From NCBI GenBank assembly GCA_023262855.1, contig JALQYQ010000053.1, positions 1 through 64,000 of the forward strand: 64,000 nucleotides of DNA. Direction: 5' to 3'. The position numbers and the translations under genes were made by a program. Below are positions 1-15,345 of the stretch, piece by piece. Numbering within the stretch: position 1 is the stretch's first letter; each line of letters starts with the position of its first letter. Source of the stretch: Crocinitomicaceae bacterium. GTDB lineage: Bacteria; Bacteroidota; Bacteroidia; Flavobacteriales_D; Crocinitomicaceae. The notes under the pieces are model-generated. The model saw only the letters and a list, made by a program, of their open reading frames with translations. It did no database searches and was not told where the DNA came from.

Positions 1-29
1 CTAATATAGTAAAACATAGTTTGCGTTAA
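1..29 (+). CDS. 3' end of a T9SS-sorted surface protein (cut by window edge)
   Basis: Only the last nine codons and the stop (TAA 27-29) are inside the window. They read SNIVKHSLR, the same residues and the same bases as the end of the protein that stops at 4959. This is the extreme end of a type A T9SS sorting domain, so a paralogous secreted protein lies immediately to the left. The frame is set by the identical sequence at 4931-4959. Nothing can be said about the rest of the protein. Confidence 0.75.
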
Positions 30-42
30 AATTATGGTCTGA
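15..42 (+). repeat. E3 element, copy 1 (stop-codon hairpin plus GGTCTGA)
   Basis: CATAGTTT (15-22) pairs with AAATTATG (29-36) around the loop GCGTTA, with one G-U wobble; GGTCTGA follows at 36-42. The stop codon TAA lies across the loop and the right arm. The same unit occurs at 4945, 8557, 11456 and 11889. Confidence 0.75.
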
Positions 43-50
43 ATGAGATT

Positions 51-74
51 GGGAGATGCAAACGAGTGTCTCCC
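51..74 (+). other. hairpin with loop containing TGCAAACGAG
   Basis: GGGAGA (51-56) pairs with TCTCCC (69-74) around a 12-nt loop that contains TGCAAACGAG. There is no T-run, so it is not an obvious terminator. The loop is shared with 8587-8620, where the stem sequence is different. Confidence 0.55.
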
Positions 75-127
75 ATCTTAATCCAAATTAGCAAACTAGT
101 TTACTAAGAAAGAAACTGAAAAATGAT

Positions 128-162
128 AAATCCCCTTTGTGAAAGCAAAGGGGATTTTTGTT
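128..162 (+). terminator. Rho-independent terminator
   Basis: The stem AAATCCCCTTTG / CAAAGGGGATTT has a 6-nt loop and a T-rich tail. It ends the transcript of the T9SS gene that enters from the left. Confidence 0.8.
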
Positions 163-429
163 TTTATACTAATTTTAAACTGATTTTGTATACTTTGTAC
201 AGATATGGTTAAGGGCACATCATTTAATTGAATTTGTTAATTTGATGACATCTTGATATACCCAGCCTGTAAAATTCAGATTCACTGCAAAGTAAATATT
301 AATTGGTCTTTGCTTTGGATTTATTAAGATTCACTTTTGTCATTATGGCTATCTTGTTGCGTTTCAAATGTATATGACTTTTCTTTTTCTTAAATCGGAA
401 GAAATTTCCCAAATACGGAAAAAATGCAT

Positions 430-443
430 GTTAAGAAATTAAC
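430..443. promoter_or_regulatory. inverted repeat GTTAA-GAAA-TTAAC, possible operator
   Basis: A 14-bp repeat with 5-bp arms. A second one with the same arms starts exactly 74 bp downstream, about seven helical turns away, on the same face of the DNA. A regulator binding both is inference only. Confidence 0.3.
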
Positions 444-503
444 AATTATTTAAGGCGTTACCAATATTGCTTGATTTTATTGCATTTTAAGGAATAATTA
501 CGT

Positions 504-517
504 GTTAAATATTTAAC
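504..517. promoter_or_regulatory. 14-bp perfect palindrome GTTAAATATTTAAC, possible operator
   Basis: Perfect dyad 81 bp upstream of the start codon of the large surface-protein gene. It shares its arms with the inverted repeat at 430-443. AT-rich dyads can arise by chance in this genome, so confidence is low. Confidence 0.3.
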
Positions 518-560
518 ATTTCATTTTGGCATATTTCTTAATGTTAATATTGGCTTCATC

Positions 561-592
561 TAGACCATGAAGTTAAAACGCTAAAAACTATA
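561..592 (+). repeat. E5 element, copy 1 (inverted relative of E3)
   Basis: Reads TAGACCAT, then AA, TTAAAACGC and AAAACTAT. This follows the reverse complement of E3 (TCAGACCATAATTTT, then AACGCAAACTATG) with small gaps. It ends six bases before the start codon at 598, so it lies in the 5' UTR. The match is by eye. Confidence 0.5.
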
Positions 593-597
593 TTACT

Positions 598-3500
598 ATG
601 AAGAAAATTTATGCATTTTGGGGTACGTCTTCCCCTAGAACAATAAAGACTGTTTCAAGGTTTGTAAATGGAATTATAAAGATTACTTTTTTATTCTTCT
701 TAATTAGTCTTTTTAGCATTAGGTTAAACGCTCAATGTAGTAATTGTAATTCCAATTATCCAAGCGGTACATTTTCGACAACCTCGGCTTCATGGACAAA
801 TGTTTCTTCTTATATTTATGGAGGAGAATATGCATATTACAATGTTAGTTTAGGCTCAACTTACGAGTGGTCCACATGTGGAATTGCAAGTTATGATACT
901 CAATTAACTTTAAAACAAGGTAGTAACTGTAGTGGAACAACTTTAGCATATAGTGATGATTTTTGTAACGCACAATCTCAGATTACTTGGACAGCCACAT
1001 TCACAGGTACTGTTACTGTTTTATTAAGTCAATACTACTGTTCGAATAATTCAACAAATACTTCGCTTCAATGGCGTTGCAGTAATTATGTTGTGCCTTG
1101 TGTTGCACCATCTATTCCTGGTTTTGGTACGAACGCGTGGAACGTGGCGTGCTATGAGGGGAACAATTTCAATACGTTTAAAGGCTTTTATACACAAACG
1201 AGTTTAAATTTTGATTCATCTACTAGATGGGCGACAGGAGGTACACCTTCAAGTGCCAACGCTACTGGAGGTGCTGCTTATTCAGGATGTCCTGTGAGTG
1301 CTGATAATCATTCTGTGAGCTACAAAAGACAGGGGTTCACGCCTGGTATCTACACAATTGATATTTTGAGAGATGACGATTATTTCCTTTTAATTAATGG
1401 TGTACAGGTAGTATCTGGTGGTTGTTGTGGTTGGTCCTATGGTGTTTGGAGCGGTTTGCTTGATGCTACATCAACTGTAGAAATAAGACTAAGAGAATAT
1501 AGTGGTGGATCCCAAATTGCTGCGAACTTCAACTATTGTGCTTTACCTTCGGTGCCAGGTTTTGGAAATAATACATGGAATGTTCTTGGTTACCGACATA
1601 ATGGGTATAATTTTGCTAATTTATCAGGATTAACAGCTCAAACTTTCTATGGGTATTATTCGAATTCAACCATTGATATTTCGTCTACCAACCAGTGGTG
1701 CAGCGATTGTAGTCCTTCTAATGCAACGGGTTGGTCGGGTTGTGTATTACAAGCAGATAATCATACCGTTGTTTATAAACGCCAAGGTTTTCCAAGTGCC
1801 TATTATCAGATAGATTTAAATGGCCACGATGATGGTGTGCAATGTTACGTTAATGGAGCCTTGGTTTATCAGATTGATGGTTGTTGTGCTGACAGAGGAA
1901 TTATTTGGTCTGGTATGCTGTGTTCAACAAGTACAGTTGAATTTCGTGTAATGGAAGGCGGAGGCGGCAGTAATTTATTTGTTGATTTTATTGAATCATC
2001 AGTTACAGCAAATGCCGGAGTTGATGCAACAATTTGTTCGGGACAATCAACAGTGCTTAATGGCTCATCAACGTTACCTGCGAATTACACCTACACTTTA
2101 ACAATGAATGATTCTTATGGAGATGGCTGGAATGGTGGTTATCTTTCTGCTTACATTAATAATAGTTGGTTTGCTAATTACGCTGCAAGTGGATACGGTT
2201 CAACAGCAACTATTACTGTTAATCCAGGTCAAACAATTTATTTTGTATATACGAGCGGTTCTTGGGAGAGTGAAAACACTTACTCAATTGCTCGAAATGG
2301 TTCAACAGTCTACTCTGCAGGAACTTATCCGCCAACTGGTACGGTTTATACTAACAATAGTCATCCTCAAATTGTGAACTATTCTTGGACTCCTTCTACA
2401 GCATTGAGTTCATCAACTATTGCGAATCCAACGTGTACAGCAACAACTTCAACTAATTACACATTTACAGCAAATAATAGTGGTTGTTCGGTTTCAGACC
2501 AAGTTTTGGTAACTGTTAATACAGTACCTGCTCAACCATCAACGATCGCAACACCTTCAATTATTTGTAATGGAGTTAATGGAGCATACAGTGTTACCAA
2601 TGTGCCAGGCGTTACGTATACTTGGTCTTATTCAGGAGCTGGAACAATCTCTGGAAGCGGCAATAGTATTACATTAAACGCAACAACTAGTGGGACTCTA
2701 ACAGTTACACCTTCAAATTCATGTGGTAATGGAATAGCAAGGACGCTCAGTATAACGCTGAATCCGTTGAGTGCAGGTTCACATAATTCAACAATAGTAA
2801 ATGGTTGTGTTGGTTCCAATCCGTCCAACCTAACTTTGACTGGTACTTCGGGTGGAACTGCTCCTTACTCCTACCAATGGCAAGTAAACGGAGCAAATGC
2901 TACTGCGTCTACTAATTCTCCTAATTCGACATCTTCGAGTTATGACCCTGATGCATTAACTACAGTGGGAACATTTTCGTTCAGATGTATGGTGACCGAT
3001 GCATGTGGAAACGTTGCATACACTAACCCAAAAGTATTTAATCTTGTAGCAGATCCGAATACTCCAAGTGCTACAAAAAGTCCAAACTTATCATCAGTAT
3101 GTCCAGGAACTACTTTAACGGTATCAAATCCTCAATATGGAACAGAGCAAGGAAGAAGTTGTGGTTTTGAATATAGGTTCTCTACTGACGGCGGAACAAA
3201 CTATTCCGCATGGTCTGCAACAGTTCCTTCTGTTACGGCGGTTGGTACAAACAACCGAATTCAGGTAAGGGTTATCTCGAACTGCGCTGATGGTTGCAAC
3301 GCAAGTTTAGCATCAACATATTCATGGAATGTAAATACGGAATCTACTGATCCTACATCTATTTTAGGAACAACGAGTATTTGTCAGGGTAACTCAACGA
3401 CATTGACAATTGTTGGCGGAAGTGCTGGTACAGGTGCTACACCGCAATGGTTTGAAGGAACTTGTGGAAGCACCGTAATTGGTTCAGGTAGCTCAATTAC

Positions 3501-4959
3501 CGTTTCACCAACTATAAACACGACTTACTTCGCTAGGTATAATGGAACTTGTAATACGACAGCATGTGTTAATGCAATTGTGGTAGTTAACGCTTTACCT
3601 GTAGTTAATGCTGGTCCAGATAAAACAGTTTGTATGGGTAATTCTGTAACACTTTCAGGAACTGGGGCTTCAACTTACACTTGGGATTATGGTGTAACAA
3701 ATGGAGTAGCTTTCACTCCAGCAGCTACTACGACATATACAGTTACTGGAACTTCTAATGGATGTACAAACACAGATCAGGTTGTTGTTACGTTGCCTAC
3801 TGCAGGTTCAGATTTGGCGACTGATGGAGAAAATGCAACATGTGCTGTAAGTGAGAACGGTTGGGTACATTTCTACAATTTATCATCTGGTAAATTAATC
3901 GCGTCCATTAACTCACAAGGACAAGACCTTGGAAACGTAACCATGACGTCGTATGTTGATGCTACTAATGCATTGGTTCCTGCTTGTGTAAATCCAAGTG
4001 CATTAACTTCAACAAGTGTTATGCAACGTCACTGGGTAATTACCCCAACAAATCAGCCAACTTCAGCAGTGTTGGTTCGTTTCCCTTTTAGTGACAATGA
4101 ATTTAATTCTTTGAATACTGCTGCGTTTAACAATCAAAATCCAAATGATAATGTTGGTGCTATTGGTGATGTTAAACTATCAAAATACAGCAATGGCAGT
4201 GCGGGGAATGTTAATAATATTGCAACGGATAATTGTGGTTCAGGTTCAACAACCTTACACACTCAAATGGCTGGTGGTAATGGTGTATTAAGTACCATCT
4301 ATCCACAGATCACGAGTGTAACAGGTAAATATGTTACCTATGAAATCCCAGGTTTCTCAGAATTTTGGTTACATGGTAGTGCAATGGATTCTCCACTTCC
4401 AGTAGAATTGGTAAACTTCCAAGCGAATTGTGCGGGTGAAGGAAAAGTTGATGTTACATGGGCAACGGCTTCGGAGCACAACTCAGCAAACTTCACAGTT
4501 GAAAAATCACGTGATGGAATTAACTGGACAATACTGACTTCAGTTGCTGGAGCAGGAAACTCTACTCAAATGATTAATTATTCAATTGCAGATAGCGACG
4601 CTGCTTCAGGAGTTAATTACTATCGTTTGACACAAACAGATTTCGATGGCGCTTCTGAAACGTTTAATATTGCAAGTGCAAATTGTGGCGATAACTCTCC
4701 ACTCACAACTGTAAAAGTATATCCGAATCCAAGTGCTGGTGATTTCTATATCGACTTCACTTCGGAGGAAATCACAGGAGCTTCAGTAATTACAATTACA
4801 GATGCACGTGGAACGGCAGTGTATACACAAAATGTTACAGTAACAAAAGGCAGCAATGTATTCCACATTGAAAATATGGACGCTGCTCCAGGAATGTACT
4901 ATATCCAGGTTTCTAACGGAACCGCTACCTCTAATATAGTAAAACATAGTTTGCGTTAA
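598..4959 (+). CDS. large secreted surface protein with tandem PA14-like repeats and T9SS sorting domain
   Basis: 1453 residues, probably a secreted, cell-surface-anchored adhesin or structural protein; the ligand is unknown. A long basic N-region and hydrophobic stretch ending in LNAQ (residues 1-46) form the signal peptide. Residues 47-165 are a Cys/Tyr-rich domain. Residues about 167-316 and 317-468 are two tandem copies of a PGFG-N-x-W-N-V / YKRQGF / DD-x5-NG / GCC domain that resembles PA14-type folds. Ser/Thr-rich Ig- and PKD-like modules follow. A fibronectin-like module (PLPVELVNFQA, from about 1267) precedes the type A sorting domain (VYPNPSAGDFYIDF to KHSLR, 1371-1453). This last pair of modules recurs in the 6827 and 8789 genes. 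The protein should cross the inner membrane by Sec and the outer membrane by T9SS, with loss of the C-terminal domain. An E5 element precedes the gene and an E3 element overlaps its stop. Confidence 0.85.
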   Translation: MKKIYAFWGTSSPRTIKTVSRFVNGIIKITFLFFLISLFSIRLNAQCSNCNSNYPSGTFSTTSASWTNVSSYIYGGEYAYYNVSLGSTYEWSTCGIASYDTQLTLKQGSNCSGTTLAYSDDFCNAQSQITWTATFTGTVTVLLSQYYCSNNSTNTSLQWRCSNYVVPCVAPSIPGFGTNAWNVACYEGNNFNTFKGFYTQTSLNFDSSTRWATGGTPSSANATGGAAYSGCPVSADNHSVSYKRQGFTPGIYTIDILRDDDYFLLINGVQVVSGGCCGWSYGVWSGLLDATSTVEIRLREYSGGSQIAANFNYCALPSVPGFGNNTWNVLGYRHNGYNFANLSGLTAQTFYGYYSNSTIDISSTNQWCSDCSPSNATGWSGCVLQADNHTVVYKRQGFPSAYYQIDLNGHDDGVQCYVNGALVYQIDGCCADRGIIWSGMLCSTSTVEFRVMEGGGGSNLFVDFIESSVTANAGVDATICSGQSTVLNGSSTLPANYTYTLTMNDSYGDGWNGGYLSAYINNSWFANYAASGYGSTATITVNPGQTIYFVYTSGSWESENTYSIARNGSTVYSAGTYPPTGTVYTNNSHPQIVNYSWTPSTALSSSTIANPTCTATTSTNYTFTANNSGCSVSDQVLVTVNTVPAQPSTIATPSIICNGVNGAYSVTNVPGVTYTWSYSGAGTISGSGNSITLNATTSGTLTVTPSNSCGNGIARTLSITLNPLSAGSHNSTIVNGCVGSNPSNLTLTGTSGGTAPYSYQWQVNGANATASTNSPNSTSSSYDPDALTTVGTFSFRCMVTDACGNVAYTNPKVFNLVADPNTPSATKSPNLSSVCPGTTLTVSNPQYGTEQGRSCGFEYRFSTDGGTNYSAWSATVPSVTAVGTNNRIQVRVISNCADGCNASLASTYSWNVNTESTDPTSILGTTSICQGNSTTLTIVGGSAGTGATPQWFEGTCGSTVIGSGSSITVSPTINTTYFARYNGTCNTTACVNAIVVVNALPVVNAGPDKTVCMGNSVTLSGTGASTYTWDYGVTNGVAFTPAATTTYTVTGTSNGCTNTDQVVVTLPTAGSDLATDGENATCAVSENGWVHFYNLSSGKLIASINSQGQDLGNVTMTSYVDATNALVPACVNPSALTSTSVMQRHWVITPTNQPTSAVLVRFPFSDNEFNSLNTAAFNNQNPNDNVGAIGDVKLSKYSNGSAGNVNNIATDNCGSGSTTLHTQMAGGNGVLSTIYPQITSVTGKYVTYEIPGFSEFWLHGSAMDSPLPVELVNFQANCAGEGKVDVTWATASEHNSANFTVEKSRDGINWTILTSVAGAGNSTQMINYSIADSDAASGVNYYRLTQTDFDGASETFNIASANCGDNSPLTTVKVYPNPSAGDFYIDFTSEEITGASVITITDARGTAVYTQNVTVTKGSNVFHIENMDAAPGMYYIQVSNGTATSNIVKHSLR
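1096..1998 (+). repeat. two tandem copies of a ~150-residue domain inside the 598 gene
   Basis: The copies begin near 1096 and 1540. Shared landmarks, in order, are PGFG-N-x-W-N-V, an NATG-GC segment, ADNH-V-YKRQGF, a DD motif followed by NG, GCC, and W-G-L/M-x-TSTVE. Copy identity is moderate at protein level and low at DNA level, so the duplication is old. The DD/NG pattern suggests a PA14-like carbohydrate-binding fold, which is inference. Confidence 0.6.
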
Positions 4960-4972
4960 AATTATGGTCTGA
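4945..4972 (+). repeat. E3 element, copy 2
   Basis: Same hairpin as copy 1: CATAGTTT / AAATTATG around GCGTTA, then GGTCTGA. It spans the last codons and stop of the 598 gene. The second hairpin, with the TGCAAACGAG loop, follows at 4981-5004. Confidence 0.75.
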
Positions 4973-4980
4973 ATGAGATT

Positions 4981-5004
4981 GGGAGATGCAAACGAGTGTC
5001 TCCC
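4981..5004 (+). other. hairpin with loop containing TGCAAACGAG, copy 2
   Basis: GGGAGA / TCTCCC around a 12-nt loop, identical to 51-74. It lies in the 3' UTR of the 598 gene, between E3 and the terminator. Confidence 0.55.
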
Positions 5005-5054
5005 ATCTTAATCCAAAAAAGGCAAACTTGCTAGCTAAGAAAGAAACTGTAAAA

Positions 5055-5090
5055 AGAACCCTTCCTGCAATAGGAAGGGTTCTTTTTTTT
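5055..5090 (+). terminator. Rho-independent terminator of the 598 gene
   Basis: AGAACCCTTCC pairs with GGAAGGGTTCT around a 6-nt loop, followed by eight or more T. It is strong and correctly placed about 95 bp after the stop codon. Confidence 0.9.
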
Positions 5091-5216
5091 GGGAATAATT
5101 CCCATTACGGGAAGTTTTAAATAATAAAAGTAATTGGAGCATGTTTGTAATTACTTGATTTGTAATTATTTGTATATTTTTAAATAATGTGGCACAAATT
5201 TATCAATTCAGTTAAC

Positions 5217-5240
5217 TCAGACTTTTATTTTAACTCTATA
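5217..5240 (+). repeat. E5 element, copy 2
   Basis: Reads TCAGAC, then TTTTATTTTAAC and CTATA, matching the left part of the reverse complement of E3. It ends 10 bases before the ATG at 5251. This copy keeps the TCAGAC and ATTTTAAC blocks but not the rest. Confidence 0.4.
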
Positions 5241-5250
5241 ATTGAAGATT

Positions 5251-6798
5251 ATGAATAAACAATTATTTTTTAACAAAACTATTTTATTTGCTGTAGTTTT
5301 TGGATTTATGAATACCGAAGCAAAAGCACAAAGTGTTGCCATAAATTCAACCGGAACAAACCCTGATGCTTCATCTATTCTAGATTTAAGCTCAACTACA
5401 AAAGGATTCTTAGCACCACGTTTAACATTGATTCAACGAAATGCAATTGCATCACCTGCAACAGGTCTCTTAATTTATCAGACAGACAATGTACCAGGTT
5501 TTTATTTCTTCGATGGTTTAGCATGGCTACCTCTTACATCCTCTACAGGTGGATTAGCAAATGGTACACTTGCAGGTAATACAACGTATTGGAATGGTTC
5601 GACGTGGGTGGTTAATAGTGCTAATATTTACAATAACGGAGCAAATGTTGGGGTAGGAACAAGTTCTCCAATTCAAAAATTAGATATTAATGGACGTATG
5701 CATGTAACCGAGGGCGTGATTCAGCGAGGTGGTGCAGCAATAACCAGTACAAGTGACTTAGGGTTGTATTCGCGTAACTCAGGAAATTGGATGAGACTTG
5801 TTACAAATGCAGCTCCAATCAAATTTTACTCGGATGATAACTCTGGCACAAATTGGAATATGAGCATTGAACCAAATGGAAACGTTGGAATTGGTACAAA
5901 TTTAACAGCCATGTCTCGTTTAAGTATTTTAGTGCCTGATGATAAAAACGGGAATCCAATGGACAATGGTATTCATGTTTACAACAATGGAAATGCAGGA
6001 GACAATGATGATGCTATTATTGCTGCGCGTGTTTCTGATGCCGGTTCTGGTGATCCATTCTTTTCAGTTGATGTAAATGGAATTGGTGGTTGGTCATTTG
6101 GTTTGGATAATAGTGATAATGATAAATTCAAGATTGGACGTAGTTGGAATGATCCAGGGGCGAATACAAAATTTACGATTGACCCAAATGGAATGGTTGG
6201 TATTTCCACTGCAACGCCTTCTGCTATGTTGCAAATAGATCACAATTCAGCGAGTACATATGGAACTTCTGTTTTATTGTACGAAAATCAAGCAGGAAAT
6301 AGTGATGGATCAAAAATTGGGTTCGATAAATATACACCAGACAAACGTTGGACAATCGGTATGATGAATGGGAATACAGAAACTGGATTTGGAATTAATG
6401 AAGATGGTGGAATTGGAGGTTTTGGAACCAATCGAATGTATTTCCAAGCTGGTGGTAATGTTGGAGTTGGTACAACTGCTCCATCTGCTAAGTTGGATGT
6501 TAATGGAAGTATTAAAGTGGGAGGAGGAACTGTTGTAAATAAAATTCAAACAGGACAAGCGACTCTTGGAACAGGGGCTGCAGGTGTTCAGCAATTTACC
6601 ATTACGTTTCCAACTGCTTTTGCAGCTGCGCCACGTGTAGTTGTTTCAGCGGAAAGTGCAAATACCACAACAGAAACATTTATCACAACAGTGAAATCAA
6701 TTACAGCAACTACATTTATGGTAAATGTATACCGCATCGATTCTCCTGGAGCAGCATGGACGCAGTCATTAAAATTGAACTGGTACGCCTTTCAATAA
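5251..6798 (+). CDS. secreted tail-fibre-like protein with H-type-lectin-like C-terminus
   Basis: 515 residues from the ATG at 5251. A TTG nine bases upstream is in frame, but the ATG gives a normal signal peptide, MNKQLFFNKTILFAVVFGF up to AKAQS. The start of the mature part (SVAINSTGTNPDASSILDL, then TTKGFLAPRLT) and the repeated NVGVGTSSPIQKLDINGR and NVGIGT-type segments are typical of a family of Bacteroidota surface proteins related to phage tail fibres. The last 75 residues (FTITFPTAFAAAPRVVVS and so on) look like an H-type lectin or collar domain. No T9SS sorting domain is visible, so its export route is uncertain. The 6827 gene follows after 28 bp, so the two are probably co-transcribed. 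Binding partner unknown. Confidence 0.75.
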   Translation: MNKQLFFNKTILFAVVFGFMNTEAKAQSVAINSTGTNPDASSILDLSSTTKGFLAPRLTLIQRNAIASPATGLLIYQTDNVPGFYFFDGLAWLPLTSSTGGLANGTLAGNTTYWNGSTWVVNSANIYNNGANVGVGTSSPIQKLDINGRMHVTEGVIQRGGAAITSTSDLGLYSRNSGNWMRLVTNAAPIKFYSDDNSGTNWNMSIEPNGNVGIGTNLTAMSRLSILVPDDKNGNPMDNGIHVYNNGNAGDNDDAIIAARVSDAGSGDPFFSVDVNGIGGWSFGLDNSDNDKFKIGRSWNDPGANTKFTIDPNGMVGISTATPSAMLQIDHNSASTYGTSVLLYENQAGNSDGSKIGFDKYTPDKRWTIGMMNGNTETGFGINEDGGIGGFGTNRMYFQAGGNVGVGTTAPSAKLDVNGSIKVGGGTVVNKIQTGQATLGTGAAGVQQFTITFPTAFAAAPRVVVSAESANTTTETFITTVKSITATTFMVNVYRIDSPGAAWTQSLKLNWYAFQ

Positions 6799-6826
6799 TA
6801 GAACATTTTGTTTTAAATAGTTTCTT

Positions 6827-8329
6827 ATGAAGAATAAAATGGAAAGTAGAATGAAGCTGCTTTTACTAATATCCTTTTTGGGATACGGTAGAGTTGGAGC
6901 TTTATTTTCTCAAGTCACTGTGTCAACTGGTACTTCAATTGTTGCGAATAACAATGCAATTATTGTGCTTCAGGATATTTCATACAACAACGAATCATCA
7001 AATACTCACTTTGTAGATCCACTAAATAATTGCGGTGTAAAATTGACGGGTACAAATCCTGTCTCATTTAATAGTTCAGCTGCTTACACGACTGAGTTTT
7101 CAAATTTATTGATTGACAAAGTTAATTCAGCAGTTACACTTAATAATCCAGTGAATGTGAGAACCGTATTAACAATGTTAAATGGTGATATTTACACAAC
7201 TGCAAATAATATTCTATCACTAGGAGTGAATAATCCAGCAGCGATTAATTATTTCTCAGGAACGGTAATTGGTCCAATGAAGAGGTGGTTCAATGCGACA
7301 ACAAATTCAGGCCAAAGTTCTAGTTTATTTCCTGTTGGAAATGTGGATGGAGGTGTAAAAAATAGAAAGGCATTAGTAGAATTTACAAATTCACCAACTC
7401 AATCTGGCTATGTTAGTGTTGAATTTATTGGACAAAATCCTACATTGACAAGTGCTGGTACGAACGGAATTACCTTAGTTGACCAATATAATTGGCAATT
7501 AGACAATGTCGTAACAGAAGGTTTTTGGGATGTAAAACAACTAAGTTCAGTAGGAGGAACCTATTGTTTGACTACAAGAGCCAATCAATTCACTACGTTT
7601 GATTACACTGCTAGTAGAATTATTAAATCAGCAAGCCCTTACGCAGTCTGGAGTTTAGAAGGAGTTCATGGAACAACTACCGGAAATCAGCTCGATTACA
7701 TTATTAACCGAACTGGATTAACAGGAACAGCCTATTACACTATCGCTTATCCAACTGCAATTCCATTGCCCATAGAATTAATTAGTTTTCAAGCGAATTG
7801 TAATGATGATAATTCAGTTTTAATTTCTTGGTCAACTGCTTCAGAGTTTAATTGTGCAAGTTACCTTCTAGAAAAATCCAGAGATGGGGTGAATTGGAAT
7901 GTTCTAACTACGATAGCAGGATCTGGAAATTCAACAAGTCTTTTGAATTACTCCTTTGTTGATAATCAGGCTGAATCGGGCACAAACTATTATCGATTAA
8001 CGCAGTTTGACACGGATGGAGTTTCTCATACCTTTAATGTTGATAGTTCTAATTGTAATGAATCGAATATTGGAAATCCAATTGTGATTTATCCAAATCC
8101 ATCATCTGATGAGTTTTATATAGATTTTTATACAACTTCGCTAAACAAAGAGTCGTACGTCTCGATTGTTGATTCCAAAGGTGCACAAGTGATTTATAAA
8201 AAAGTGGCAATTGAAAAAGGAAGCAACGTGCTTCATCTTGAAAATTTAAATTTAGCAAGTGGGATTTATTTTGTTCAAGTGACAGATGGAGATAATTCAA
8301 CTGAAATTGTAAAATATTGTAATCATTAA
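6827..8329 (+). CDS. secreted protein with T9SS type A sorting domain
   Basis: 500 residues. The signal peptide is MKLLLLISFLGYGRVGALFSQ preceded by a short basic stretch; in-frame ATGs at 6839 and 6851 are alternative starts, and 6851 would give a more ordinary signal peptide. The N-terminal half is Asn/Thr-rich beta structure without a recognised domain. A fibronectin-like module starts near residue 314 (LPIELISFQANC) and a sorting domain at 418-500 (VIYPNPSSDEFYIDF). The protein ends in KYCNH rather than the KHSLR or KHSFR of its neighbours, and its stop does not carry an E3 hairpin. Probably an operon with the tail-fibre-like gene upstream. Surface location is well supported; function is not. 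Confidence 0.8.
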   Translation: MKNKMESRMKLLLLISFLGYGRVGALFSQVTVSTGTSIVANNNAIIVLQDISYNNESSNTHFVDPLNNCGVKLTGTNPVSFNSSAAYTTEFSNLLIDKVNSAVTLNNPVNVRTVLTMLNGDIYTTANNILSLGVNNPAAINYFSGTVIGPMKRWFNATTNSGQSSSLFPVGNVDGGVKNRKALVEFTNSPTQSGYVSVEFIGQNPTLTSAGTNGITLVDQYNWQLDNVVTEGFWDVKQLSSVGGTYCLTTRANQFTTFDYTASRIIKSASPYAVWSLEGVHGTTTGNQLDYIINRTGLTGTAYYTIAYPTAIPLPIELISFQANCNDDNSVLISWSTASEFNCASYLLEKSRDGVNWNVLTTIAGSGNSTSLLNYSFVDNQAESGTNYYRLTQFDTDGVSHTFNVDSSNCNESNIGNPIVIYPNPSSDEFYIDFYTTSLNKESYVSIVDSKGAQVIYKKVAIEKGSNVLHLENLNLASGIYFVQVTDGDNSTEIVKYCNH

Positions 8330-8381
8330 CTAAGCTAATCAAGAATACTTTTGTTAAACCGTTTGTTATGGTGACAAAAAA

Positions 8382-8417
8382 AAAGGGTCTCAATTATTTG
8401 AGGCCCTTTAGATTTTA
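8382..8417 (+). terminator. Rho-independent terminator of the 5251-6827 operon
   Basis: A twelve-pair stem with one U-G pair (AAAGGGTCTCAA / TTGAGGCCCTTT) closes a TTAT loop. A run of A on the left also allows function on the opposite strand; the T-tail on the right is short and interrupted. Confidence 0.7.
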
Positions 8418-8539
8418 TGTAAAACGATCTGAAATGTTTGTCTTAATAACGAAACAAAAATACAAAAGGTTGCGTATTATGTAAAAAAAAATTATATTTA
8501 ATCACCGAAAATATGGCTACATGAGTCCTTTGGGACACT

Positions 8540-8571
8540 ACCTCATATAGTAAATACATAGTTTACGTTAA
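8540..8571 (+). pseudogene. remnant of a T9SS gene 3' end
   Basis: ACCTCATATAGTAAA, then TACATAGTTTACGTTAA, matches the end of the 598 gene (ACCTC-TA-ATATAGTAAA, then ACATAGTTTGCGTTAA) except for a 2-base deletion, a 1-base insertion and one substitution. The frame is therefore broken and no reading frame leads into it. It appears to be the stump of a lost surface gene, or a stranded 3' element. The E3 hairpin inside it is intact. Confidence 0.55.
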
Positions 8572-8583
8572 ATTATGGTCTGA
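8557..8583 (+). repeat. E3 element, copy 3 (not on a gene)
   Basis: CATAGTTT / AAATTATG around a 5-nt ACGTT loop, then GGTCTGA. The hairpin is kept although the overlapping coding frame is destroyed, which argues that the structure itself matters or that the decay is recent. Confidence 0.65.
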
Positions 8584-8586
8584 ACT

Positions 8587-8620
8587 GAAAAGGGATTTGC
8601 AAACGAGCTTATCCCTTTTC
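8587..8620 (+). other. hairpin with TGCAAACGAG loop and changed stem
   Basis: GAAAAGGGAT pairs with ATCCCTTTTC around a loop containing TGCAAACGAG. The stem differs from the hairpins at 51 and 4981 but is still fully paired, while the loop sequence is kept. This is the pattern expected of a selected RNA structure. Confidence 0.5.
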
Positions 8621-8751
8621 TCATTTTTAGAAAAATACCTTTTTATATTCCCGTTTTGGTAATAAGTCTCATTGTGAGAATTCTGTAATATCTTCATTTT
8701 TAATTATTTATTGTTTTTGGCATTAAAATAGTTCTGTTTTAACCGGAGCAG

Positions 8752-8777
8752 TCAGACCGTTCCATAACGTTTAACTA
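8752..8777 (+). repeat. E5 element, copy 3
   Basis: TCAGACC, then TAACG and AACTA, in the order and approximate spacing of the reverse complement of E3. The TCAGACC block is the exact complement of the GGTCTGA that ends every E3. It lies 12 bases before the ATG at 8789. Confidence 0.4.
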
Positions 8778-8788
8778 ATTTTTATTAT

Positions 8789-11470
8789 ATGTATTTCAAT
8801 GTGAAGAATACCCCTGCGGTACTTTTAACTGTTATTTTTTTTGTTTTCTTATCATTAAATTTTTATTCACAGACTAATGTTTGCGCTGGTTCAACTAGTC
8901 AGTTGTCTTATTCCGGAACCGGCGGGACCTGGTCGTCTTCAAACACTGGAGTAGCCACTGTTAACTCAACAGGTTTGGTTACTGGTGTTTCTGCCGGAAG
9001 TTCAACGGTTAGTTATCAATCGAATAGTTCAACCAATACATCTTTGTATTGGAATTTTGATAACACTCCTACTCAAAGTGGTTCTATCTTAACTTATAAC
9101 CCAACAACTACCTCAAACAGTTCTTTGCTTTCTGGTAATTATACAACTACTGGTTCAGCTCAAGCAGTTAACCCGTTTTCGACATGGGGGAATAGTGTGA
9201 AACAAACTGATTTCGGTCCGAACTATTCGTATATCGAATTTACAACGACTGCAACGACTACAAATTTGTCTTCGATGGTCTTTCAAGTTTGGCACAACCA
9301 CAATTCAGGTCAAGCAGGTACAGGGAATTACGATGTACGTCTCCAGATTTCGTCATTTAATGGTGTATCATGGAGTGCTTGGTCAAATATTGGGAATGTT
9401 TTTACATGGTCCTCTGCTTCAACAGCAGCCCCTAGTCCTAATACGGGGCATAATATCTCTTTAACTGGAAATAGTGTGCCTGCAGGAACTCATCGAATTA
9501 GGTGGTTTAAGGTTAGTGGATCTACTTCTACAAATGGTGATGGATACATAATGAACACAGTTACTTTTAATTGTCAAAGTGTCGTGAGTTCAACTACGTA
9601 TTCAACGAATTTAAATGTTACTGCTCCAGCAACAGCACCAACTAGTATATCAGGTATTTCGAACATTTGTCCAGGAAATTCTGTTGTTTTAACTGCAAAC
9701 GGTGGTTCTGGATCCGTTTATCAATGGGGTACAGGGTCCGTTGGAACTAATATTATTAGTGGCGCAACAAGTTCGACATACACAGCGACGCCTTCAGCGA
9801 CAACAACTTATTGGGTAAGAAGAGTACAACAAAGTCCATGTACAGGGTTTACCGACGGAGTAACATTTGCTGTGACAGTAGCAAGTACAAATAGTTCTAC
9901 AAACTTAATAGTTTCCAATGGTGATTATATTTGGCAGGGAGGAAGTAGTACAAATTTAAAAACTGCTGCAAATTGGATCGTATTTACTTCTCCAAATAAT
10001 TATGCAATAGCTAGTAATGATATTAGTTCAACCAAAAATGTATTTATTCCCAAACTATCTACTTGTGTCAATAATAGCTTTCCTGTTTTAAATCAACCTG
10101 TGATTACATCAAGTAATACTTCTGTAAGAGACATAACAATTTTAGAAAATGCTATCTTAACAGTAGATGATGAAGATTTAGATGTCTTTGGTAATTGGGT
10201 GAATAACGGGACGTTCAATCATGCGAATGTCGATAAAAAAGTAGATTTCAAGCATGCTTCTGCTTTGCAAACGATAGGGGGAACATCAGAAACGGAATTT
10301 TATAACTTAGAAATATCAGAGAATAATTCAAACAATGTTGTGTTATCTAAAAATACTATAATTAAAAACAATTTTAAATTTGGTGACAATCGTAAGTTTG
10401 AATTAGGAGATTTTAATATTGTCTTTCTTGGTAATTCAACTATTTCAAGTGAAAGTAATTTAAGATACTTTGTAACTAATGGAATTGGAACTGTTAAAAG
10501 AATTTTAAATGGTTCAACTCAAAAAGAATTTCCAGTAGGAATTTCTACCTACAACCCATGTCTTTTAAACAATACTGGAACCTCTGATCAGTTTTCAGTT
10601 AGAGTAATTGAAAATGTTACCAATGATGGAACAGGAATTGGATTAACAACGGCTGCGCCAGTAGTTAAAAGAACTTGGATGGTGGATGAATTGATTTCCG
10701 GTGGTTCAGTTGTAGATATGAGTTTATATTGGAATGGATCTTCAGAGGAAATAAATGGTTTTGATCAAGCGTCTCTTTTTGTTGCTCATCATGATGGAAA
10801 TAATTGGGAAAACATAGGAGTAACAAGTAATTCAACAACGCCTTTGTTTATTAAAAAAGACGATATTTCAAGCTTTTCACCATTCACAATTGGATCACTT
10901 GGTGGTTCTCCACTTCCAGTTGAGTTGACAAGTTTCACTGCTTCATGTGAAGAAGGTAAGGGTGTTTTTGTTAAATGGTCAACAGCTTCAGAACACAATT
11001 CAAGTTATTTTGATGTATTGAAATCAGAAGACGGTCACAATTGGAGAAGTATTACTGTTGTTTCTGCAGCAGGAAATTCTGTTAATCACATCGATTATTC
11101 GGTTGTTGATGCTGAAAAAATGAATGGAACAGTTTATTACAAGTTGATGCAGTATGACATCGATGGTAAATTGAAAGAGTACGGTCCAATTTCAAGTTCT
11201 TGTAATTTATTGAATGAAATGGTTGTGAAAACTTTTCCAAATCCAAGTAGTCAAGAGTTTTATGTCGAAATTATTTCACCAGAATCAACTACAACAGTTA
11301 TTTCAATTGTTGATGCGCATGGCAAAACGGTTTATTCTCGCACTGTGGATACTGATAAAGGAGTAAATCTATACTCATTTGAAGATTTAAATATCTTACC
11401 AGGAATGTATTACATTCAAATTTCAAACGACCTTACAACCCCTAACGTTGTGAAACATAGTTTTCGTTAA
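8789..11470 (+). CDS. large secreted surface protein with Ig-like modules and T9SS sorting domain
   Basis: 893 residues. Signal peptide at residues 1-29 (hydrophobic core LLTVIFFVFLSLNFYS). A short bacterial Ig-like (Big2-type) module follows (TWSSSNTGVATVNSTGLVTG). Then come an approximately 150-residue beta-rich domain with a WHNHNSG segment, further Ig-like modules (NICPGNSVVLTANGGSG), a fibronectin-like module from about 708 (PLPVELTSFTASC) and the type A sorting domain at 811-893 (TFPNPSSQEFYVEI to KHSFR). The last two modules are homologous to those of the 598 and 6827 proteins, so the cluster arose by duplication with replacement of the N-terminal parts. Preceded by an E5 element and ended by an E3 element and a terminator. 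Probably an adhesin or structural surface protein; substrate unknown. Confidence 0.8.
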   Translation: MYFNVKNTPAVLLTVIFFVFLSLNFYSQTNVCAGSTSQLSYSGTGGTWSSSNTGVATVNSTGLVTGVSAGSSTVSYQSNSSTNTSLYWNFDNTPTQSGSILTYNPTTTSNSSLLSGNYTTTGSAQAVNPFSTWGNSVKQTDFGPNYSYIEFTTTATTTNLSSMVFQVWHNHNSGQAGTGNYDVRLQISSFNGVSWSAWSNIGNVFTWSSASTAAPSPNTGHNISLTGNSVPAGTHRIRWFKVSGSTSTNGDGYIMNTVTFNCQSVVSSTTYSTNLNVTAPATAPTSISGISNICPGNSVVLTANGGSGSVYQWGTGSVGTNIISGATSSTYTATPSATTTYWVRRVQQSPCTGFTDGVTFAVTVASTNSSTNLIVSNGDYIWQGGSSTNLKTAANWIVFTSPNNYAIASNDISSTKNVFIPKLSTCVNNSFPVLNQPVITSSNTSVRDITILENAILTVDDEDLDVFGNWVNNGTFNHANVDKKVDFKHASALQTIGGTSETEFYNLEISENNSNNVVLSKNTIIKNNFKFGDNRKFELGDFNIVFLGNSTISSESNLRYFVTNGIGTVKRILNGSTQKEFPVGISTYNPCLLNNTGTSDQFSVRVIENVTNDGTGIGLTTAAPVVKRTWMVDELISGGSVVDMSLYWNGSSEEINGFDQASLFVAHHDGNNWENIGVTSNSTTPLFIKKDDISSFSPFTIGSLGGSPLPVELTSFTASCEEGKGVFVKWSTASEHNSSYFDVLKSEDGHNWRSITVVSAAGNSVNHIDYSVVDAEKMNGTVYYKLMQYDIDGKLKEYGPISSSCNLLNEMVVKTFPNPSSQEFYVEIISPESTTTVISIVDAHGKTVYSRTVDTDKGVNLYSFEDLNILPGMYYIQISNDLTTPNVVKHSFR

Positions 11471-11483
11471 AATTATGGTCTGA
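11456..11483 (+). repeat. E3 element, copy 4
   Basis: CATAGTTT / AAATTATG around TCGTTA, then GGTCTGA, covering the last codons and stop of the 8789 gene. The loop differs by one base from copies 1 and 2, while the arms are unchanged. Confidence 0.75.
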
Positions 11484-11489
11484 AAAGTG

Positions 11490-11518
11490 AAAGCGAGGAG
11501 AGGTCCTCGCTTTTTTTT
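11490..11518 (+). terminator. Rho-independent terminator of the 8789 gene
   Basis: AAGCGAGGA / TCCTCGCTT with a GAGG loop and an eight-T tail, seven bases after E3. Confidence 0.9.
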
Positions 11519-11701
11519 GTTTCAAAATCGAGTAAATAAAATAAAGCACGTGTCAATACGTATGCGGTAATTTGCTTCTATGCAAGTGTTCTGTTTATAG
11601 TTGAAGGTTTTAGTGTATGCATCCGAATTTTTGAGATCCGACTTACAATTGTAAACAGCATACAACTCGTATGTTTTTTCGAGTAGTCAGTAGATTTTTT
11701 A

Positions 11702-11729
11702 TTAGACCGTAATTTGTTAATGCAAACTA
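11702..11729 (+). repeat. E5 element, copy 4 (not on a gene)
   Basis: TTAGACCGTAATTTGTTAA, then TGCAAACTA. This is the best match to the reverse complement of E3 (TCAGACCATAATTTT-AACGCAAACTA), differing at a few bases and a two-base insertion. With the E3 at 11889 it brackets about 160 bp that carries no real gene. Confidence 0.6.
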
Positions 11730-11762
11730 ACTGTTGTTCAACTAATAAAAAATTTTCCTTTT

Positions 11763-11846
11763 ATGAGAAATTTAAACAATTCAAATAAATGTAAACTACT
11801 GAAAATTAGCAAAGTGATTAATTGGCATCGTATTTATATACGTTAA
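11763..11846 (+). pseudogene. 27-codon frame, possible stump of a surface gene
   Basis: MRNLNNSNKCKLLKISKV, then INWHRIYIR and stop. It begins 34 bp after an E5 element, as the real surface genes do, and ends 42 bp before an E3 element. It has a basic N-terminus but no hydrophobic segment. It may be the start of a surface gene whose body was deleted, a small peptide gene, or chance. Confidence 0.25.
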
Positions 11847-11888
11847 ATAGAGCGAAAGCTTCATTAACCCACTAACCCAAATCTAAAT

Positions 11889-11915
11889 CATAGTTTGCGT
11901 TAAACTATGGTCTGA
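11889..11915 (+). repeat. E3 element, copy 5 (not on a gene)
   Basis: CATAGTTT / AAACTATG around GCGTT: here the wobble pair of the other copies is a perfect G-C pair. GGTCTGA follows. No reading frame runs into it. Confidence 0.7.
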
Positions 11916-11917
11916 GG

Positions 11918-11949
11918 AAAAGGTGAGGCGTAAGTCTCACCTTTTTTTT
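11918..11949 (+). terminator. Rho-independent terminator after E3 copy 5
   Basis: AAAAGGTGAG / CTCACCTTTT with an 8-nt loop and a long T tail, three bases after GGTCTGA. It has the same layout as the E3-terminator pair of the 8789 gene. Confidence 0.85.
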
Positions 11950-11954
11950 ATTCA

Positions 11955-11987
11955 AAAAAAAAGGAACAATTAGTGCTCCTTTTTTTT
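11955..11987. terminator. second, bidirectional terminator-like hairpin
   Basis: A seven-A GGA arm pairs with a TCC seven-T arm. It is flanked by A on the left and T on the right, so it could work in both directions. No gene ends here on either strand. Confidence 0.6.
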
Positions 11988-12073
11988 GGTGGTTTCGTTT
12001 ATTAATCAGTCCTAATCTGGGAAAATCTATCCTTTATTAGGAAATATTTTTGATGTGCCAAAAGTTAAATCGT

Positions 12074-12203
12074 TGAATATCAATTGTATAAATCTAACGG
12101 CACGATTATTTCAATGTTTAAACTGATTATCGTAGAGTGGTTTCAAGAATAATCAGGTTAGGTAAATAGCAAAAGGAGAATCGGAAACGGTACTCCTTTT
12201 TTT
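12074..12203 (+). ncRNA. candidate small RNA, unit B1
   Basis: About 130 nt, homologous to 12338-12465. It starts with TGAATATCAAT; then comes a TATAA-type string, GGCACGA, the block GATTATCGTAGAGTGG (12125-12140), a dyad CTGATTAT / ATAATCAG that encloses it, AGGTTAGGTAA and a terminator (AAAAGGAG / CTCCTTTT). There is no coding frame common to the two units. The exact 5' end is unknown. Confidence 0.4.
12171..12203 (+). terminator. terminator of unit B1
   Basis: AAAAGGAG / CTCCTTTT with a 14-nt loop and a T run to 12203. Confidence 0.7.
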
Positions 12204-12337
12204 ATTTCCTGAAACGAAAGTATAACCTTATTTTGATTCTACAATGGATTTTTGAGTTTCTTGAAAAATAAATTCTCATTATTGGATAAAGATTCCAAAA
12301 TTGGAAATTTACCAAAATGAAAAAGTTTTTATAAGTC

Positions 12338-12465
12338 TGAATATCAATATGTTATAATTTAGGCACGAATTTGACTATACTTTACTCGATTATCGTAGAG
12401 TGGTTTCATGAATAATCAGGTTAGGTAATAGCAGAAAAGGGAGTGTTTACACTCCCTTTATTTTT
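12338..12465 (+). ncRNA. candidate small RNA, unit B2
   Basis: Same order of blocks as B1: TGAATATCAAT, TATAA-type string, GGCACGA, GATTATCGTAGAGTGG (12388-12403), ATAATCAGG, TTAGGTAA, then a terminator with unrelated stem sequence. The first block and the GATTATCG block are 50-51 bp apart in both units. The central 45 bases are nearly identical while the terminator stems differ, so the RNA rather than a whole duplicated segment seems to be conserved. Confidence 0.4.
12436..12465 (+). terminator. terminator of unit B2
   Basis: AAAGGGAGTG / CACTCCCTTT with a TTTA loop and a T-rich tail. A perfect ten-pair stem. Confidence 0.85.
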
Positions 12466-12681
12466 GCGTCTAATTTTCCAAAAAAAGGAATTTCTTTCCA
12501 AAATCCGGATTAAATCAATAATTGACCTGAATTAATCAATTGATAATCAACAGAATACTAAATAGGAATAGTTTTTATTGTTTTTGCAACATAATAATTA
12601 CTTGGTTTTTATTAATTAGGAAATAGATATTTTTTCATGTTGTCTATTTACTACCAATTTTCGTTGCTTTATTTAGGTAAA

Positions 12682-12716
12682 AAAAAAGAGGAACCTTCCA
12701 CGTTCCTCTTTTTTTA
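12682..12716. terminator. bidirectional terminator at the end of clpB
   Basis: AAAGAGGAAC / GTTCCTCTTT with A and T runs on both sides. It ends clpB on the minus strand and any plus-strand transcript from the non-coding region. Confidence 0.85.
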
Positions 12717-12729
12717 TTATGCTTTCCGC

Positions 12730-15345
12730 TTATAGCTCTTCTGAAGCTAAGACTGGTTTTCTAAATACTATTTTACCATCAAAGATATCCATTACAACAT
12801 TTTGACTTCGATCTATTGCTCCAGATAAAAGTGCTTTCGATAGTTCATTCAATACTTGCTTTTGAATTACTCGTTTTACAGGTCGTGCCCCAAAGAACGG
12901 ATCGTACCCCGTTTCTGCAATCCATTCAAACGCATCATCCGTAATGACTAAATTAAGTTCCTTTTCTTTGAGTTGATTTTTTAGACTGTTCAATTGAATC
13001 GAAACAATTTCTTTGACATTCTCCTTCGTAAGAGGCATAAACAAGATTGTTTCATCGATGCGATTTAAAAATTCAGGTCGAATTGTTTGTCTCAATAATT
13101 CCATGACCTCAATTTTTGCTTTTTCTCCAGCTCGCTCAAATTCAGCAGGTTTAATGTTATCAAATTTTTCATGAATGATATGAGATCCTAAATTGGATGT
13201 CATGATGATGATCGTGTTTTTAAAATTCACCAATCGACCTTTGTTGTCTGTTAATCTTCCATCATCAAGAACTTGCAATAAAACATTGAAAACATCAGGA
13301 TGCGCCTTTTCTATTTCGTCCAATAGAATAATCGAGTAGGGACGTCTTCGAACTGCTTCCGTTAATTGACCTCCTTCATCATATCCAACGTATCCCGGAG
13401 GAGCGCCAACCAATCTAGAAACTGAGTGTTTTTCTTGGTATTCACTCATGTCTATTCTTGTCATCGCATTTTCATCATTGAATAAATATTCAGCCAGTGC
13501 TTTTGCAAGTTCTGTTTTTCCAACACCCGTTGTTCCTAAAAAGATGAAAGAACCAATTGGTTTTCTAGCATCTTGTAATCCCGCTCTTGATCTACGCACT
13601 GCGTCTGAAATTGCACTAATAGCCTCCTCTTGTCCAACTACGCGTTTTCCTAATTCATCTTCCAATCGTAAAAGTTTAGAAACTTCACTTTCTATCATTT
13701 TATTCACTGGAATACCTGTCCACTTTGAAACAACTTCAGCTATTTCTTCTGCATCAACTTCTTCCTTGATCATTTTAGATTTCACTTGCATTTCTGATAA
13801 TTGAACTTTCAATTTCTCAAGTGTTTCCTCAGCTTCTTTAATTCTTCCGTAGCGAATCTCAGCAACTTTTCCATAATCTCCAGAACGTTCCGCTTGATCT
13901 GCTTCAAGTTTGAATTGTTCTATAGCCTCTTTGTTTTTTTGAAGTGCATCGATAATATCTCGTTCTGCTTGCCATTTCGCTTTGAAAGAATCGCGTTGTT
14001 CTGATAAATTCGCCAAATCCTTTTGAAGAATTTCCATTTTCTTCGTGTCATTTTCGCGTTTAAGAGCGGCACGTTCAATTTCCAACTGCATTATTTTGCG
14101 TTCTAATTCATCCAATTCCTCTGGTTTTGAATTAATTTCCATACGAACCTTAGATGCTGCCTCATCAATTAAGTCGATTGCTTTATCAGGTAAATGACGA
14201 TCTGTAATATAACGTTGTGATAATTCAACTGCTGCGATGATCGCTGCGTCTTTAATCAATACTTTGTGGTGATTCTCGTATTTCTCTTTAATACCACGTA
14301 AGATGGAGATTGCATCCTCAGTTGTTGGTTCATCCACTAAAACTGTTTGAAATCTTCGAACAAGCGCTTTGTCTTTCTCAAAGTACTTTTGATATTCATT
14401 CAATGTTGTTGCTCCAACAGCTCTTAATTCTCCTCGTGCTAAAGCAGGTTTTAAAATGTTTGCAGCATCCATTGCTCCTTCGCCACCACCACCTGCACCA
14501 ACAAGCGTGTGAATTTCATCAATGAATAAAATTATTTCTCCTTCTGCACTGATTACTTCTTTAACAACTGCTTTTAAACGTTCTTCAAACTCTCCTTTGT
14601 ATTTTGCCCCAGCTATCAACGAACCCATGTCTAACGAATAAACAACTTTCGATTTTAAATTCTCAGGAACATCTCCATCAATAATGCGATGCGCAAGTCC
14701 TTCGGCGATGGCTGTTTTACCAACTCCTGGTTCACCGATGAGAATCGGATTGTTTTTCGTTCTTCGTGTTAATATTTGTAAAACCCTGCGTATTTCGTCA
14801 TCTCTGCCAATAACGGGATCCAATTTCCCAGACTTTGCCAGTTCATTTAAGTTTTTTGCGTATTTCTCTAATGATTGATAAGTGCCTTCTTGACTATTAG
14901 AAGTGACTTTATCTCCTTTTCTTAAATCCATAATTGCTTGTTTAAGCGTTGTTTTTGTAATTCTGTTATCTTTTAATAAACTTCCAATAGCATCGTTTAC
15001 ATCAAGCAATCCCACTAATAAAAGCTCGACTGAAACAAATTCATCACCAAAACTTTTCATTTCAGCTAATGCATTCGTTAAAACTTTATTTGCGTTTTGT
15101 CCTAAGTAAACTTGTCCGCCTTCTACTTTTGAATAACTGACTAGAATTCGATCTAAGGCAGCTTCTAGCATTTGTTGATTTACAGAAAGCTTTTTAAATA
15201 AATAAGGTGCCACATCTTGATCAATCAAAAAAATGGCCTTTAATAAATGTCCAGTTTCAATGGCTTGATTTCCGCTGGACTCAGCAAAGTTTTGAGCTTG
15301 CTGAATCACTTCTTGTGATTTAATTGTAAATTTTGAAATATCCAT
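12730..15345 (-). CDS. clpB: ATP-dependent disaggregase ClpB
   Basis: 871 residues, the full length for ClpB. A hexameric AAA+ chaperone that rescues aggregated proteins in the cytoplasm together with DnaK. Clp N-domain repeats at 1-145; NBD1 with Walker [11 protein letters not shown] (about 203) and Walker [11 protein letters not shown]; a long coiled-coil middle domain (about 400-530) that separates ClpB from ClpA and ClpC; NBD2 with Walker [11 protein letters not shown] (about 603) and [12 protein letters not shown]. The C-terminal ClpB D2-small domain is complete. Single gene, divergent from the glucosaminidase at 15563. Heat-shock control is usual for the family, but I see no clear heat-shock operator in the 217-bp intergenic space. 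Confidence 0.97.

Follow-up and report, generated by a model that had tools for sequence, protein, structure and literature searches.

Candidate pairing of mRNA ends in a small set of T9SS surface-protein genes from one freshwater genus

The window, that is, the whole 64,000-nucleotide stretch analysed here, is the start of one contig in a genome of 3.28 Mb and 73 contigs, from a genus of freshwater bacteria. Near its left edge lie genes for large T9SS surface proteins, accompanied by two short elements, E5 in the 5' leaders and E3 at the gene ends. These features are listed below; R1 is an E3 model built from the five window copies.

15-42, plus strand: E3 at the left contig edge, at the end of a gene cut by the contig start (copy and coding-end reading, R1 match)
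527-532, plus strand: TGGCAT, sigma54-like -24 element of gene 598 (putative promoter)
550-600, plus strand: E5, with hairpin 550-576, loop CTAGACC (560-566) and leader to the ATG (598-600) (hairpin and duplex tests)
598-4959, plus strand: T9SS surface protein, 1453 aa, Por_Secre_tail and Ig_7 (ORF and domain annotation)
4945-4972, plus strand: E3 of gene 598, overlapping the stop codon (fold, R1 match)
4974-5010, plus strand: second hairpin, loop GCAAACGAG, directly after E3 (predicted fold)
5190-5195, plus strand: TGGCAC element of the 5251 operon, 29 nt from AGAC versus 35-37 elsewhere
5217-5253, plus strand: weak E5 (TCAGACT, without a good hairpin, hairpin p 0.45) and leader
5251-6798, plus strand: H_lectin-domain protein, no sorting domain found when scanned from 5272 (domain annotation)
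6827-8329, plus strand: T9SS protein, 500 aa, ending KYCNH, stop codon without E3 (domain annotation)
8557-8583, plus strand: non-coding E3; by eye, the bases upstream resemble a decayed sorting-domain end (R1 match)
8718-8723, plus strand: TGGCAT element of gene 8789 (word and spacing)
8745-8791, plus strand: E5, with hairpin 8745-8763, loop AGTCAGACC, then leader to the ATG (hairpin and duplex tests)
8789-11470, plus strand: T9SS surface protein, 893 aa, Big_2 and Por_Secre_tail (ORF and domain annotation)
11456-11483, plus strand: E3 of gene 8789, overlapping the stop codon (fold, R1 match)
11702-11729, plus strand: E5-like sequence, best inverted match to E3, without TGGCAY upstream or a good hairpin
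11889-11915, plus strand: non-coding E3 (R1 match), with a related copy and similar flank in G002 (L081)

The window thus holds E5 at 561, 5217, 8752 and 11702, and E3 at 15, 4945, 8557, 11456 and 11889. When re-read on the window, the coordinates given for both elements in the original prediction proved right, and the same applies to the placing of E3 at the ends of the genes at 15, 4945 and 11456 (coding ends KHSLR or KHSFR plus stop) and to the exact TCAGACC at 8752-8758.

The window E3 reads CATAGTTTGCGTTAAAATTATGGTCTGA, its ending TATGGTCTGA is shared by all five copies, and the consensus is CATAGTTTGCGTTAA...GGTCTRA. In T9SS surface genes, its 5' part encodes the C-terminal residues His-Ser-Leu-Arg together with the stop codon; the copies at 8557 and 11889 are non-coding and lie outside any such KHSLR/KHSFR reading frame. 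When folded alone, E3 is predicted to form an approximately 8-bp hairpin that has the stop codon at its loop, the GGTCTGA tail remains mostly unpaired, and a second strong hairpin follows. A strong terminator-like hairpin is predicted directly 3' of E3 in all 26 copies, and in 10 of them its loop region contains AAACGAG or AAACGTG. Among 20 distinct copies, the E3 hairpin is better than with random 3' arms (combined p 4e-17, the copies being related), and the stem deviations comprise seven G-U pairs, no A-C and five transversions. The stems of the hairpins after E3 (window 4974-5010 and 8587-8618, and in relatives) are unrelated to one another, and their AAACGAG/AAACGTG loop could pair with GUUUGC of E3. 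At the contig start, positions 1-87 are 100% identical (87 nt) to 4931-5017; the contig therefore probably broke at this repeat, and additional E3 genes may lie beyond the left edge.

E3 is confined to few genes. R1 scored the five window copies at 47.7-55.2 bits, and at E <= 10 the sole other match in the 3.28-Mb genome was at chance level (17.8 bits, E 7.9), so that the genome total is five copies, all within the window. In 60 relatives at E <= 1, R1 matched 13 genomes, namely 12 of the genus and one outside it at chance level. A second model, R2, was built from a 25-row alignment of 25 copies, leaving out L004 (its E3 is identical to that of L005) and L009, L021, L030 and L034 (judged chance). 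At E <= 7.8e-6, R2 returned 26 copies, spread over 12 of the 26 genus genomes, the next match having E 0.013, and it gave no further clear copy in the genus compared with R1; the weak E3 of G008_6017 (16.8 bits with R2) stands outside the 26. Among 240 family genomes, 21 had a match at E <= 0.01, and the nine outside the genus reached at most 22.8 bits, which is weak against 27.9-44.5 bits for the 26 genus copies. When 84,980 species genomes were scanned with a pattern, 12 stretches were found in nine assemblies, all on contigs equal in length to contigs of genus genomes; the one titled Chitinophaga pinensis is surely a mislabel. In the window's genome, 150 of 209 sorting-domain candidates were scored, and at least 128 matched. 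Given this number and the genus-restricted matches, E3 has been observed in a single genus and at few of its genes, and its reading as a T9SS-wide element was rejected, since only three coding ends carry it. In Rfam searches, only two tRNAs of the window exceeded the gathering score, and the seven matches within 1-12800 at E <= 1 all fell under it. These tRNA genes are in tandem (23079-23150 and 23166-23237) and have equal Rfam scores.

Judging by the leaders of E3 genes in relatives, an inverted E3 does not fully describe E5. Most E5 copies combine a hairpin, with a gene-specific stem and AGAC in the loop (mostly YAGACC), with downstream bases that match E3 as far as the AUG. The stems include CTTCAT/ATGAAG (within a longer stem), TGCATCA/TGATGCA, TATCAT/ATGATG, TTTCGT/ACGAAA, CATCCG/CGGATG, GCTC/GAGC and GGAGC/GTTCC. 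For the nine AGAC-containing copies, the hairpin around AGAC had a combined p of 3e-7 (G012, G021_14758, G005_5071 and G008_6017 were left out), and those at 11702 and before 5251 are without a good hairpin. In several genes, TTAACGCAAA or a relative stands between the hairpin and the AUG. The original claim that E5 approximates the reverse complement of E3 held weakly as a plain statement: with R1 and filters off, 11702 scored 12.8 and 8752 9.9 bits, which is chance in 64 kb, and 561 and 5217 were not among the matches listed for the 64-kb window. Its part that 11702 is the best inverted match stood, with R2 giving E 0.079, the top non-E3 match listed for the genome. A search with strict E5 words in the 26 genus genomes gave 13 matches in six of them, of which 10 were reversed E3, one a true E5 and two others, so that E5 is not findable by words alone; a covariance model of E5 was abandoned, the alignments having too few conserved bases.

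As part of the 5' leader, E5 follows a sigma54-like TGGCAY at a distance of about 35 nt, and is for this reason probably at the 5' end of the mRNA. The distance from TGGCAY to AGAC is 35-37 nt in six of seven cases and 29 nt before gene 5251. Sigma54 promoters have a consensus of GG at -24 and GC at -12 at the usual spacing. In 22 aligned sites (seven E5 leaders and 15 small-RNA copies, described below) the pattern is TTGGCAYR-N4-TT-N-C; the -24 GG is present in 22 of 22, but the sites were chosen for GG, and the -12 part, TT-N-C, is degenerate, with C in 14 of 22 and the preceding G in 3 of 22. Three of the 18 small-RNA copies were left out of this table (one each from L067, L105 and L112), two of them without a matching GG word. 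RpoN had a match in every one of the 26 genus genomes, above the cut-off in 25. Counting 24-25 nt from the GG, transcription is predicted to start at the E5 hairpin. In G008_3896, the E5 hairpin is present, TGGCAY is absent, and the gene end lies beyond the contig.

Both features go with E3 when their position before genes is considered. A hairpin with AGACC in the loop (score >= 10) occurred at five of 198 gene starts in the fetched regions, all five being E3 genes or leaders of E3 operons, and four control words in the same scan gave no match; among the starts unrelated to E3 there was thus none, as the pairing of the elements had led one to expect. TGGCAY was found 45-100 nt upstream of 9 of 240 gene starts, and seven of the nine lead E3-linked transcripts: five E3 genes and two operon leaders (window 5251 and G005 10782). 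The other two are copies of one gene, beside an E3 gene in G011 and in G012. TGGCAY was absent (0 of 30) from other T9SS genes, called by a simple end motif. On the other hand, the association is incomplete. Among 11 E3-linked transcripts with a visible start, four have neither TGGCAY nor YAGACC, the canonical E5 (the orthologues G021_14758 and G005_5071, G012_10733, and G008_6017, whose E3 is itself weak), and together with the non-coding copies they are cases of E3 unaccompanied by E5. E3 stands alone at 8557 and 11889 in the window and also in G008 and G023, and in G001 and G017 it lies beside gpsA (named by eye from sequence), within what resembles a small RNA. The weak 5217 copy can be linked to the E3 at 8557 only if transcription reads through a terminator-like hairpin near 8385. 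The words TGGCAY...AGACC at E5 spacing showed no genome-wide enrichment in six genomes (87 matches versus 90 for the control), and a comparable hairpin was present in 22 of the 87, five being E5 and 17 other. The association of E5 with E3 rests on position before genes, not on words.

The gene content beside clpB differs between genomes. E3-linked transcripts adjacent to clpB number at least three in the window, one in G005 and one in G023, with an AdoMet decarboxylase/spermidine synthase gene beyond; the G004 locus has a gene pair that by its ends, judged by eye, resembles 5251-6827; and in G001, G017 and G019 only a small RNA separates clpB from that neighbour. The E3 proteins are mosaics with about the last 190 residues in common. 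Together, these observations imply that genes come and go while the ends persist, and since the clpB locus gains or loses these genes, the turnover is real.

Such turnover is one of the grounds on which E5 and E3 could be the imperfect inverted ends of cassettes that move or recombine as DNA, the first of two readings in the original prediction. Mobile cassettes, including integron attC cassettes, have inverted ends around single genes and gene turnover at one locus; E5 and E3 are likewise inverted around single genes at such a locus, these genes are absent in G001, G017 and G019, and 11702-11915 has both ends without a long gene. Cassette movement nevertheless appears unlikely: the promoter-like element and the terminator-like hairpin lie outside the repeats, the E5 stems vary from copy to copy, and the E3 stem deviations include seven G-U and no A-C. 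A check for target-site duplications found by eye no direct repeat at three module edges (15 nt each side), and no recombinase was present among 16 annotated proteins, which represent a minor part of the window. The specific integron attC reading was rejected, because core words and spacing misfit (compared by eye) and the spacer contains a terminator-like hairpin and a promoter-like element.

The second original reading, that the 5' and 3' UTRs pair in the mRNA, is the better supported of the two. E5 is at the predicted transcription start behind the sigma54-like element, E3 is directly before a terminator-like hairpin, and the E5 stems vary while the loop and the E3 tail stay complementary. 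Each 5' region was compared with its own E3, against shuffles (12 pairs) or 230 natural 5' regions (seven pairs; window 5251, window 11702 and three unpaired transcripts entered only the shuffle and alignment tests). The duplex shuffle p was <= 0.017 in 8 of 12 pairs and 0.087 in G012; complementarity with the own E3 was absent from G021_14758, G005_5071 and G008_6017 by both shuffle duplex and alignment. In five of the seven pairs (window 598, window 8789, G005, G023 and G004), the duplexes of -20.6 to -29.2 kcal/mol lay below all 230 natural regions, whose means were -9.2 to -10.4 kcal/mol; G003 was equalled by three and G012 by four of these regions. For 11702, the duplex shuffle p was 0.003 and the alignment was reached by 0 of 500, and for 5217 the tests disagree (duplex p 0.007, alignment p 0.196). 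Consequently, the proposed match with the own E3 is clear for 561, 8752 and 11702 and divided for 5217.

The complementarity falls into two blocks, one matching the loop to the tail, the other matching the stretch ahead of the start codon to the final codons and the stop codon; the start codon is inside the predicted duplex in G023 and window 5251. The own E3 was the best partner of three of nine leaders by alignment score and of two of nine by duplex energy: G004 (35.2 versus at most 29.5 for the others) and G012 (33.1 versus at most 23.3) by both measures, and G023 by alignment only. For the remaining six of nine, another E3 was equal to or better than the own one. G012 is without YAGACC, and CCAAATAG matches CTATTTGG in its own E3 instead; the own-best matches of G004 and G012, the latter with a changed word, may point to selection on the match itself in these diverged cases. 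In the loop/tail block of eight pairs (nine-base words typed by hand), the deviations were seven G-U, one A-C and three transversions, and together with those of the E3 stem these counts are as would be expected for sense-strand RNA. The whole free alignments of eight pairs (only the eight rows with p < 0.05 were counted) had five G-U, nine A-C and 17 transversions, and here strand symmetry gives RNA no support. Because the sequences are related, the deviation counts are not independent.

The main rival of end pairing is that E5 and E3 are separate hairpins that do not pair with each other, the 5' one protecting or tuning a sigma54-type mRNA and the 3' one, with the terminator, protecting the 3' end, so that their inverted likeness would be a leftover of descent or chance. 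Both elements do form local hairpins, E3 persists without E5, and most leaders match another E3 at least as well as their own, all of which make this a possible explanation, to be taken seriously though doubted; the five pairs that exceed every natural 5' region and the G012 pair, which stays complementary with a changed word, argue against it. The same G012 pair, as well as the hairpins of the E5 word and of E3, would be left unexplained if the two elements were inverted operators for one DNA-binding regulator, for example with DNA looping, with TCAGACC just past the promoter and GGTCTGA at the gene end. The exact inverted seven-base words and the regular distance of AGAC from TGGCAY would fit operators, a reading that we regard as very improbable.

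Based on the results presented above, the reading we prefer, to which we give a probability of about one half, is that E5 and E3 are the 5'- and 3'-terminal RNA elements of a few sigma54-type transcripts for large T9SS surface proteins and that these ends pair. E5 and E3 are predicted to be on one transcript, which would run from the TGGCAY element to the hairpin after E3. The E5 hairpin would stand at the very start of the mRNA or close to it, exposing UYAGACC in its loop, and the E3 hairpin at the stop codon would leave GGUCURA single-stranded, with the terminator-like hairpin at once after it. The loop UYAGACC may then pair with the tail GGUCURA as a first block, and a second block may form between the bases leading up to and including the start codon (UUAACGCAAA..CUAUG or relatives) and the final codons with the stop codon (CAUAGUUUGCGUUAA). 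The tail would meet the loop first, and the duplex would then spread toward the start codon, closing the mRNA into a loop and repressing translation or altering decay; translating ribosomes and the two local hairpins would be its competitors. Pairing that covers the initiation region is the most likely mechanism, as in icaR, and the matching ends look like a built-in translation switch on adhesin mRNAs. In a broader version, the E3 of one message, including non-coding copies, would also cover the starts of other E5 genes while own ends pair as well, and RNA-RNA competition would pick the surface proteins. Such a trans network is allowed by the cross-pairing energies, which are often as good as those of own pairs, and has candidates in the non-coding window copies of E3 (8557 and 11889) and in those of G001 and G017 next to gpsA, but we consider it rather unlikely.

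Pairing between the ends of a bacterial mRNA has been described for single genes in the portions consulted of PMC3868564 and PMC7821165. In icaR of Staphylococcus aureus, which concerns biofilm, the 3' end of the mRNA is complementary to its own initiation region and the pairing covers it (the same portion of PMC3868564). The likeness is that an mRNA 3' end would pair with its own initiation region; icaR differs, as far as that portion of PMC3868564 describes it, in being a single gene with a long 3'UTR and an anti-Shine-Dalgarno motif, whereas here the genes are several members of one family, the hairpin is terminal and has a loop, the stop codon itself is inside the element, and no Shine-Dalgarno motif was identified. 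In hbs of Bacillus subtilis, a 14-nt 5'-3' interaction protects against RNase Y (PMC7821165, portion consulted); here too, both ends of one mRNA would pair over about the same length, but hbs is a single gene and the effect is protective. RNAIII of S. aureus has a long-range 5'-3' pairing of seven bases (PMC7821165, same portion), which resembles the seven-base pairing between transcript ends proposed here, but it is a regulatory RNA with a small gene and not an adhesin mRNA. Judged from sequence alone, E5 and E3 would work like the icaR/hbs class, and complementarity of 5' leader and 3' end beyond background, which marks this class, was found here in the majority of pairs by either background. 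In the open-licence literature, including the portion consulted of PMC9723704, no such end-pairing control for T9SS surface proteins was found. The best reading is an end pairing repeated across a gene family in one genus, unlike the single-gene icaR. If true, an adhesin mRNA family with paired ends and one promoter type implies that the control can spread as a module, and it offers many natural variants for testing end-pairing control.

Several minor observations concern the neighbourhood of these genes. The apparent small RNA beside clpB (GATTATCGTAGAGTGGTTTCAnGAATAATCAGGTTAGGTAAnAGC and a terminator-like hairpin) is in tandem in the window (12125-12204 and 12388-12466, plus strand), lies behind TGGCAC-like elements and has 18 copies in 11 genus genomes; it matches no Rfam family at gathering score. 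In 15 of the 18 copies, the distance from the GG word to the conserved loop downstream is 35-37 nt, which equals the spacing in the E5 genes. Pairing of E5 with this loop was considered and is unsupported (p 0.105 to 0.544, nine E5 copies). Beside gpsA, E3 ends an apparent non-coding RNA that is similar in G001 and G017 (L078 8678-8947 and L079 8907-9179, minus strand), and G012 has a full E3 gene at the corresponding place. The gene beside the E3 gene in G012 (L076, upstream of 7473, minus strand) and G011 (L077, upstream of 1104) encodes a protein of 162-169 aa and has TGGCAC 54 nt before its start, with the AGAC word absent. Finally, the spacers from E3 to the next gene in G004 and G008 (L070 4900-5180 and L073 4300-4800) contain short degenerate repeats, AATTCGCGCAGCGATCAAATTTGCGAAGC and relatives.
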